A stretch of 64,000 bases of DNA from Streptomyces sp. V3I8 (GTDB lineage: Bacteria > Actinomycetota > Actinomycetes > Streptomycetales > Streptomycetaceae). Of the stretch, positions 47,543-49,069 are shown piece by piece. The first letter of the stretch is position 1; each line of letters opens with the position of its first letter. The DNA lies in NCBI RefSeq assembly GCF_030817535.1, contig NZ_JAUSZL010000002.1, positions 2,046,001 to 2,110,000 on the forward strand, read 5' to 3'. The notes below the pieces were generated by a model that saw nothing but the letters and a program-made list of their open reading frames with translations, was not told the DNA's origin and did not search any database. The position numbers were made by a program, and so were the translations under genes.

Positions 47543-49069
47543 TCAGCCCGAATGCGTACAGCTGCGTCCGTTGAGCGTGAAGTCCACCGGTGTCGAGTTC
47601 GCGTCGCGCCACGAGGCCAGGAAGCCCACGGCGAGTGAGCCGCCCGCGGCGACGGACTTGTTGTAGTCGGCGGCGCTCGCGGTCAGGCGGGAGCCCTTCT
47701 GGGCGAAGTCCCCGTCCCACATCTGGGTCACCTTCTGGCCGTCGCGGAAGGTCCAGCCGACGAGCCAGGTGTCGAGGGCGTAGTCGGACCTGACGGTGAC
47801 GGTGGCCTGGAACCCGTCGGGCCACTCGCTGACCAGGTCGTACCTGGCGTGGCAGACGGCGGGTTCGCTGGGGTCGGGCCGGGGCGCCCCGTCCTGCTCG
47901 GCGGAGGACGAGGCGTCGCCCTGGGCCTCCTTCTGCGACCGGGAGCCGGTGTCCGCACCGGATGCGGGGGTCCGCGGGCTCGACGTGGACGAGGTCGATC
48001 CGCCCACCGACCCGGCCTTGGGCCCGGACCCGGACGGCAGGGCGTCGAACGAGGGCACCTGTTGCCCCACGGGCTGCCGTCCCGCCTCCGTGGTGACGTC
48101 GGAGCCCTCGGAGCCGTCGTCCGGGCCGAAGGGCACCAGCGTGACGGCGAGCGCCAGCAGCGAGACCCCGGCCGCGGCGGCCAGCAGTCCGGCGCGCCCG
48201 ACACGGGCCCGGCCGCCGCCCTCCTCCGGCCGGCCGGCCGGGTCGTCCGGGTCGTCGGCGGCGCTGCGGCTGAGCCCCGACTCGACGGCCCGGCGCCGGC
48301 GCTCCAGGTAGGCGAGCCCGCCCCAGCCGATCACCCCGCCCGCGAGCGCCCCGGGCAGCCCGCCCCCGGCGTGCTTGAGACAGGCGGCGGCCTCCGCGCA
48401 CTCGACACAGCGCGCCAGATGCCGCGACAGGTCCTCGGGCACGTCGGCGGCGGGCGACCGGGTGACCGCGTCGAGCAGCCGCGCGTAGCTGCGGCACTCC
48501 TCGGAGAGCGGGGTGTCGAGGTGGTTGCGGTGGCAGCGGTCGCGGAACACCCCGCGCACCTGCTGCAGCTCCTCGGCGACGCCCGCCGGATCGAGGCCGA
48601 GCCGGCGGGCCACGGCGGGCGCCGGCATGGCCTCGACCTCGGCCAGCCAGAGCAGCGCGGCGTCCGGTTCCTGCATGTCCCGCAGTCCACGCAGCGCCAG
48701 CGGCCGGTGCAGGGGCGGACCGCAGAAGCGTTCGGCGTGGTCGGAGTTGAGCCACAGGCGCAGGTCGGGGTCGAGGCGGCCGCCCTGCCCCTGGGCCTCC
48801 CAGTCGGCGGCCGTCCGGCGCACGGCGGTCAGCAGGAGCGGTATCCGGGGCAGCCGGGGCGCGCGCGCCCGGCGGCCGAAGTGCTTGCCACCCGTCCCGG
48901 CCTCCGCGGCACGCGCTTCGCGTATGCCGCGGGAGAAGGCCTGGGAGGCCAGCGGGCGTGCGTCGGCGGAGCCGGCGGTGCAGAGGTCGGCGTAGGAAAG
49001 AACCGCGTCCCAGCACTCCGAGAACAAACTGGCTTCGGCGGCGTCCTGAGGGGTCGGCAGGTCTGGCAT
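47543..49069 (-). CDS. Anti-sigma-like membrane protein with extracellular cellulose-binding CBM2 domain
   Basis: A 508-residue protein with four parts. Residues 1-183 are helical and sigma-like, with an HTH-like stretch at about 136-183 ([20 protein letters not shown]). A zinc-finger-like HLARCVEC (H217, C221, C224) resembles zf-HC2 anti-sigma factors. The membrane segment is at about 292-315 ([20 protein letters not shown]), after a weaker Gly-rich hydrophobic stretch at 241-255. A Ser/Gly-rich linker leads to a CBM2-type cellulose/xylan-binding domain at 406-504, with C406 and C504 as the usual disulfide and aromatic residues at W415, W435, W439, W451. This suggests a polysaccharide sensor reporting across the membrane, similar in idea to Clostridium RsgI, but in a different architecture. 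Start ATG 49069 is the best fit; ATG 49090 is possible. Confidence 0.75.

Follow-up and report, generated by a model that had tools for sequence, protein, structure and literature searches.

The window analyzed here, a stretch of 64,000 nucleotides from Streptomyces sp. V3I8 (contig NZ_JAUSZL010000002.1, positions 2,046,001 to 2,110,000), carries at 47543..49069 on the minus strand a gene that starts with ATG and encodes a protein of 508 amino acids. Those homologues that have been named are called "cellulose binding domain-containing protein" or similar. Judged by sequence, the protein is a relative of the actinobacterial fusions of sigma factor, anti-sigma factor, and lectin known as ECF52 (ECF, extracytoplasmic function). 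Its sigma half looks degenerate, whereas the zinc ligands of its anti-sigma domain are kept.

Domain Organization

Reading from the N-terminus, with all features on the minus strand, one finds a sigma2-like domain (residues 8–109; 48743..49048) and a sigma4-like helix-turn-helix domain with a nonbasic recognition helix (residues 120–186; 48512..48712), both degenerate in appearance. These are followed by a zinc anti-sigma (ZAS) domain of the zf-HC2-like kind (residues 187–232; 48374..48511), which aligns with the ZAS domain of ECF52, and by juxtamembrane helices (residues 233–262; 48284..48373), which are the most conserved stretch of the protein. Hydropathy predicts a transmembrane helix at residues 293–313 (48131..48193), after which come a fast-evolving, probably extracellular linker (residues 316–405; 47855..48124) and a CBM2 domain (residues 406–504; 47558..47854). 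An earlier note, written from the DNA letters of the window, had proposed a sigma-like part, a zinc finger, a membrane segment, and an external CBM2 in a single protein, and this layout is borne out by the ECF52 match, the structure comparison, the hydropathy profile, and Pfam. The last of these recognizes CBM_2 (residues 406–504, 90 bits) as the sole domain of the protein.

The zinc residues named in that note (H217, C221, and C224) are present in the motif HLARCVEC, and C192 adds a fourth ligand-type residue. The four do not vary in any of the aligned proteins (202/202) or in any row (33/33) of a smaller alignment. The signature Hx3Cx2C, which PMC7406223 gives for Class I (ZAS) anti-sigma factors, is therefore present as H217-x3-C221-x2-C224 in 202/202 rows. 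The Pfam family zf-HC2 itself was found in 1 of 16 homologues, with an E-value of 0.14. By analogy with the anti-sigma domain described in PMC7406223, the juxtamembrane helices are a candidate for its helix 4.

Sigma domains are not visible to the usual profile searches. There was no Pfam match to Sigma70_r2 or Sigma70_r4 in the protein at E ≤1, and it is not among the 57 Sigma70_r2 matches of its genome. Nor was any sigma Pfam domain found in 16 homologues at E ≤10, with the caveat that beyond 0.1 most matches are lost to the filters of HMMER. NCBIfam was as uninformative as Pfam on the N-terminus, and a tRNA scan gave no lead.

Homologues and Conservation

The homology search scored 7996 candidates and returned 863 proteins at E ≤0.001; 120, including the query, were listed, and 63 were taken into the homologue alignment. 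Among the matches listed, the 119 homologues besides the query share 60–88% identity with it across 98% or more of its length, all 120 carry CBM2, and wherever a source name includes an organism, it is Streptomyces.

Mean pairwise identity among the 63 homologues is 0.76 for sigma2, 0.83 for sigma4, 0.83 for ZAS, 0.90 for the juxtamembrane helices, 0.29 for the linker, and 0.68 for CBM2. Substitution rates were estimated on 190 pairs of 20 orthologues with a simple Nei–Gojobori script that divides the nonsynonymous rate (dN) of each region by the synonymous rate (dS) of the whole gene. On this measure the medians are 0.34 for sigma2, 0.29 for sigma4, 0.20 for ZAS, 0.13 for the juxtamembrane helices, 1.43 for the linker, and 0.49 for CBM2. 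The cytosolic domains are thus under purifying selection and not in decay. A chance open reading frame or a pseudogene is ruled out by this selection together with the 119 listed homologues at the identity and coverage given.

Relationship to ECF52 and Other Systems

Residues 8–253 align with the ECF52 protein of the same genome, which is of the SCO4117 type (hhalign E 1.3e-14, 32% of 231 columns; hmmsearch 56 bits). When the genome was searched with the N-terminus at E ≤10, the matches were the query itself, one paralogue, and ECF52, and nothing else. A structural model of the N-terminal part has a predicted local distance difference test score (pLDDT) of 92.6 and a predicted template modeling score (pTM) of 0.89, and sigma factors and PhyR top the PDB fold lists obtained with it. 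The aligned rows in those lists span mainly residues 8–188; a ZAS match is not among the matches listed, which carries no weight either way. Foldseek with the full-length model listed 50 matches; these had beta folds, CBM-like or of other kinds, and did not include a sigma factor. A sigma match at the N-terminus, which the earlier note had put up for checking, is thus found both by profile and by fold, and because of this double match the sigma-like part is, on sequence and model, real even though Pfam does not see it. The compactness of the model (pTM 0.89) fits binding of sigma and ZAS in cis, so that the sigma2-like, sigma4-like, and zinc anti-sigma domains may be packed as one compact unit, with the reservation that contacts are not readable from such a model.

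The order of parts in ECF52 (SCO4117 of S. coelicolor; in the present genome P0121, L001:1134-3122), namely sigma2, sigma4, ZAS, membrane helix, low-complexity linker, and carbohydrate-binding domain, is also that of the 508-residue protein. The two differ in several respects. The 508-residue protein has lost several signature residues of sigma2 and sigma4, bears CBM2 where the ECF52 of its own genome bears NPCBM, and sits at a different locus; Sigma70_r2 recognizes ECF52 (43 bits) and not the 508-residue protein, whose linker is also less proline-rich than the ECF52 linker described in PMC5826349. Of the features that define ECF52, then, a zinc domain, a membrane helix with an extension, and a carbohydrate-binding head are present, and recognizable sigma2 and sigma4 domains are absent.

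The earlier note had considered sigma and anti-sigma parts in one protein unusual. Both parts are there, but their combination with a carbohydrate-binding domain was already known from actinobacteria, where PMC5826349 describes it for ECF52; the unusual feature, unseen in the note, is that the sigma part looks degenerate. It was likewise known that carbohydrate-binding or glycosyl hydrolase domains are predicted in some members of ECF52 and ECF53 (PMC10766802), the latter group being mentioned in PMC8999054 as well. A search of titles and abstracts, with ECF classification surveys outside its scope, found nothing among the papers listed on the 508-residue protein or on a lectin family with degenerate sigma domains. 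What is new is therefore the degenerate-sigma branch, the ECF52-type fusion being already known.

The note had also suggested a separately evolved counterpart of RsgI, the anti-sigma factor of Clostridium thermocellum. Although built like an ECF52, the protein would function on the outside much as RsgI does, which PMC12203970 describes as having a cytosolic sigma-control domain, a membrane helix, and an external carbohydrate-binding sensor. According to that description, however, RsgI binds SigI through an intracellular N-terminal domain and has an autocleavage domain in the periplasm, whereas the 508-residue protein has a putative pseudo-sigma part, a ZAS domain, and a linker that is disordered in the model. 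The SigI-binding domain is absent, the N-terminus being ECF52-like, and no RsgI Pfam match was listed in 16 members (weak evidence by itself, given that Pfam also misses the sigma part). A separate origin in the manner of RsgI is ruled out by the homology of residues 8–253 to ECF52.

Apparent Degeneration of the Sigma Half

The regions of sigma factors considered below contact core RNA polymerase and promoter DNA. We compared individual residues between 120 ECF52 proteins and the 63 homologues, 4 divergent CBM2 relatives, 12 ricin-B proteins (including L039, discussed below), and 3 proteins labeled intact. In region 2.2, the aspartate pair of ECF52 (D113 in 118 of 120, D114 in 120 of 120) is Asp in 0 of 63 homologues, with D114 replaced by Q, P, R, E, or S in all 63. 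The region 2.2 glutamate is E in 59 homologues, D in two, and Q in two, one of which is the query. R158 of region 2.4, present in 119/120 ECF52 proteins, is G in 63/63. In sigma4, P217, W220, and Q221, each found in 120/120 ECF52 proteins, have become Q, D, and A in 63/63 homologues; R219 of the same LPERWQ stretch has become P, A, H, or S; and R254 (120/120) is Q or E in all 63. Net charge has shifted as well, from +2.0 in ECF52 to a mean of −1.3 across the recognition helix of the 63 homologues, and from +3.1 to −2.4 across regions 2.1–2.2. Because so many residues that contact RNA polymerase and the promoter have been lost, it is unlikely that this putative pseudo-sigma half starts transcription itself.

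Several observations weigh against so simple a picture. The ECF52 set is 81–100% identical to its own query, which makes invariance within it a strict yardstick. Retention of ECF52 columns in sigma2 and sigma4 is 60% and 55% in the three proteins labeled intact, 34% and 30% in the 63 homologues, and 35% and 44% in the ricin-B proteins. In ZAS the corresponding figures are 39%, 34%, and 36%, from which it follows that the zinc domain, apart from its ligands, has changed as much. R249 is absent from the three intact-labeled proteins too, R85 is kept in the query, the sigma4 proline is kept in 10 of 12 ricin-B proteins, and R254 is kept in the four divergent CBM2 proteins. As the yardstick consists of close kin and sigma-intact relatives also lack some of the residues, the pseudo-sigma reading is less sure; residue loss appears clearest in the CBM2 group and graded elsewhere.

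Membrane Topology, Linker, and CBM2

The hydrophobic helix has a mean Kyte–Doolittle value of 2.31 over residues 294–312, and this block exceeds 1.6 in 63/63 homologues. Outside it, no stretch of 19 residues attains that value in 62 of the 63, the exception being P0015 with 1.65 at position 229. Lysine plus arginine average 8.9 in residues 255–295 and 1.8 in residues 315–355 across the 63 homologues. This single strong helix and the charge bias across it lead us to place the N-terminus inside and the C-terminus, with CBM2, probably outside the cell, as the earlier note had claimed. A cytosolic CBM2 is unlikely on the same two grounds, with the one homologue of 63 that has a second borderline window kept in mind.

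The linker is rich in Ser, Gly, and Pro (11 Pro in 90 residues), and pLDDT in the model is below 50 over residues 310–396. This low confidence and the mean identity of 0.29 over residues 316–405 argue against a folded domain there, such as the autocleavage domain of RsgI. For the CBM2 domain, a PDB sequence search matched CBM2 structures, that of C. fimi among them, and Foldseek matched the CBM2 part to C. fimi CBM2 with an E-value of 8e-12. The cysteines C406 and C504 mark the ends of the domain, in agreement with the terminal cysteines noted before, and both are invariant in the 63 homologues, as are W416, W451, and Y469. The latter three each align with a tryptophan in the CBM2 of C. fimi, where we take these tryptophans to be the binding ones, and because of this alignment and invariance the predicted binding face looks intact.

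Relatives and Possible Exchange of Lectin Heads

Of 200 Streptomycetaceae genomes, 144 match the N-terminal profile at E ≤1e-5, a count that includes weak ECF52-type matches; the score exceeds 350 bits in 29/200, all of them Streptomyces. Across the phylum, 11 of 396 genomes match at E ≤1e-8, of which 10 are Streptomyces (the present genome included) and one, elsewhere, is a partial match. A Pfam scan of 19 fetched relatives found 4 with CBM2 and 11 with ricin-B and no Sigma70 match. L039 carries both ricin-B and CBM2, again without a Sigma70 match. L040 and L045 combine ricin-B with a Sigma70_r2 match, above the cut-off in L040 and below it in L045 (14.6 bits against a cut-off of 24), and L046 has a Sigma70_r2 match with no lectin found. 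Among the CBM2 relatives, L047 has a subthreshold sigma4 match (E 0.18).

Two of these proteins deserve separate mention. The genome of strain V3I8 itself encodes, at C2:828632-829330 (L033), a second protein with a similar N-terminus and no Pfam sigma match, in which ricin-B replaces CBM2. L039 (L039:1376-3556) comes from another genus of Streptomycetaceae and joins such an N-terminus to both ricin-B and CBM2.

A maximum-likelihood tree of 41 rows was built from 10 of the 120 ECF52 proteins (P0122 and nine taken at random), 12 of the 63 CBM2 homologues (the query and eleven taken at random), and all 19 other rows. One branch, with support of 100/98, separates the CBM2 and ricin-B rows that lack a Sigma70_r2 match from ECF52, L040, L045, and L046. 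This tree is unrooted, long branches are flagged for L039, L040, L045, L046, L049, L050, and L041, and L045, counted among the "intact" three, has a subthreshold Sigma70_r2 match only. The simplest reading of the tree is one loss of sigma function followed by exchange of lectin heads. The ricin-B relatives (e.g., L033) resemble the 508-residue protein in having no Pfam sigma match, in keeping the ZAS ligands, and in lying on the same side of the best-supported branch; they differ in carrying ricin-B in place of CBM2 (L039 has both) and in that their sigma4 and some basic residues are less eroded.

Genomic Context and Upstream Elements

The gene's neighborhood in other genomes, which the earlier note had wanted compared, is conserved among Streptomyces relatives. 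Within 18 kb around the gene in 13 relatives (11 Streptomyces and 2 of another genus), a radical-SAM gene and a lactone-oxidase gene adjoin it in 11/11 Streptomyces, and within the stretch read a ROK gene is found in 10/11 and rsgA in 8/11. None of these four genes was near it in the 18 kb read from the two relatives of the other genus. In the window, the radical-SAM gene lies at 49262 to about 50527 on the minus strand (NCBIfam variant_rSAM, 167 bits against a cut-off of 125; no Pfam match at 1e-5), and the lactone-oxidase gene at 50711-52021. The radical-SAM neighbor is 90–95% identical in 11/11 Streptomyces relatives. Going by position, rsgA would occupy the place of SCO6149, and the S. coelicolor counterpart of the 508-residue protein may be SCO6148. 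SCO6149 is named RsgA in PMC7157823.

Two conserved elements lie 5′ of the gene on the minus strand. The inverted repeat CAACTC-N-GAGTTG (49102..49130) is conserved in orthologues, with the left arm CAACTC exact in 19 and the right arm GAGTTG in all 21 of 21. In a search limited to the exact pattern followed by AC, the genome showed this one copy. A block at 49159..49185, perhaps a promoter region, contains GCTTGTCA, which is invariant in 21/21 orthologues; with up to 3 mismatches allowed, the genome again showed a single copy. As each pattern, in the form searched, is found just this one time, no regulon can be read from them.

In this genome Sigma70_r2 is matched nowhere closer to the gene than 46 kb, and the next match is about 131 kb away. 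The earlier note had stated that the output sigma factor is not in the window. One ECF sigma gene is there, but it lies 46 kb away, and there is no sign of a link. This SigE-family gene (1093-1641, plus strand; TIGR02983, 177 bits) is the sole Sigma70_r2 match of the window. Directly after it, at 1638-2456 on the plus strand, is a gene whose product, inspected by eye, shows a membrane segment; neither Pfam nor NCBIfam matches it at 1e-5.

Co-occurrence with GH48

GH48 is a hallmark of crystalline-cellulose degraders. In a sample of 121 Streptomyces genomes, 46 carry the gene (E ≤1e-40) and 72 carry GH48. GH48 is present in 39/46 carriers of the gene and in 33/75 noncarriers (Fisher p 8e-6; p 6.5e-4 in a model with genome size, n=119), with 7 carriers lacking it. 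A control, gas vesicle protein, is present in 39/46 carriers and 56/75 others (p 0.26). Both sets of statistics ignore phylogeny. The co-occurrence favors environmental cellulose as the ligand, and it is from this co-occurrence only that we infer biomass sensing.

Possible Modes of Action

The reading to which we lean, tentatively, is that the protein is a membrane cellulose receptor derived from an ECF52-type fusion, with its sigma half turned into a pseudo-sigma factor, and that it signals by sigma mimicry or by its ZAS domain acting in trans. CBM2 would bind cellulose outside the cell, and the signal would cross the membrane helix through proteolysis or a rearrangement. The freed pseudo-sigma half might then soak up the anti-sigma domain of another protein, or the freed zinc anti-sigma domain might bind a true ECF sigma factor in trans; in either case the output would run through another sigma factor. 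The models for ECF52 given in PMC5826349 and PMC8999054 have carbohydrate sensing followed by release of the sigma domain, by proteolysis or rearrangement. PMC8103513 describes PhyR as having a sigma-like domain with degenerate RNA polymerase and promoter regions that titrates an anti-sigma factor. We therefore judge sigma mimicry or trans action of ZAS the most likely explanation and place a working, divergent sigma factor next. We consider the latter unlikely, if the most serious of the alternatives. On that explanation, the protein would be a very divergent ECF sigma factor that its own ZAS domain keeps silent until cellulose releases it, that is, ECF52-like with new promoter rules. It would fit the domain order of ECF52, whose sigma function is supported by deletion and truncation strains (PMC5826349), the fold kept at high model confidence, the purifying selection on the cytosolic domains, and the region 2.2 glutamate that is still E in 59/63. 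It is hard to square with the loss in 63/63 of the aspartate pair, of R158, and of the P, R, W, and Q of LPERWQ, and with the failure to find sigma Pfam domains in 16 members, within the limits that the HMMER filters set.

Other explanations concern the ligand or do away with sigma control altogether. The ligand may be the cellulose that Streptomyces make themselves through CslA and GlxA at hyphal tips, so that the receptor would report development or the state of the cell wall rather than plant biomass. PMC11022532 describes CslA-GlxA of S. lividans as making cellulose in vitro and a glucan at hyphal tips, and development is controlled by the ECF52 relative of PMC5826349. Yet the gene is found in 46/121 genomes, although CslA-GlxA is described as conserved in streptomycetes (PMC11022532), and GH48 tracks the gene, with or without adjustment for genome size, when gas-vesicle genes do not; we find this ligand rather improbable. 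We give still less credence to a membrane-bound DNA-binding regulator, in which the sigma4-like helix-turn-helix would sit on an operator (e.g., the gene's own upstream inverted repeat) without contacting RNA polymerase. The helix-turn-helix is modeled with confidence, and the upstream repeat is conserved as one might expect of an autoregulated gene, but the recognition helix is net acidic in the 63 homologues, the exact repeat, looser forms aside, is nowhere else in the genome, and a DNA-binding regulator would have no obvious need of the ZAS ligands that are kept. A surface adhesin, whose CBM2 anchors hyphae to cellulose fibers and whose cytosolic part is a mere anchor or a relic, is very improbable. 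CBM2 and the membrane helix are intact and no sigma gene is nearby, as an adhesin would have it, but the cytosolic domains are better conserved than CBM2 (0.76–0.90 against 0.68 identity, with lower dN/dS), which is unlike a relic, and the zinc ligands are invariant.

Implications

Extending the pseudo-sigma receptor reading from one protein to a family, we propose, more tentatively still, that Streptomyces hold an unrecognized class of lectin receptors, with CBM2 heads, ricin-B heads, or, in at least one case, both, whose fused ECF sigma factor has been demoted to a pseudo-sigma factor and which signal by sigma mimicry or trans anti-sigma action instead of initiating transcription. The likeness to PhyR of Alphaproteobacteria would lie in the use of a degenerate sigma-like domain as a protein–protein switch (PMC8103513), and PhyR chains do appear in the fold lists. 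PhyR, unlike the 508-residue protein, is a response regulator; the latter is predicted to sit in the membrane, to bear a lectin at its tip, and to be joined to an anti-sigma domain of its own.

Censuses of sigma factors that rely on Pfam alone miss these proteins. How Streptomyces sense insoluble cellulose at their surface is a practical question for the use of biomass. If the pseudo-sigma reading is true, PhyR-type sigma mimicry would have in the 508-residue protein a counterpart from Gram-positive bacteria, bound to the membrane and gated by carbohydrate, and the protein would point to an unannotated family of polysaccharide receptors in Streptomyces.
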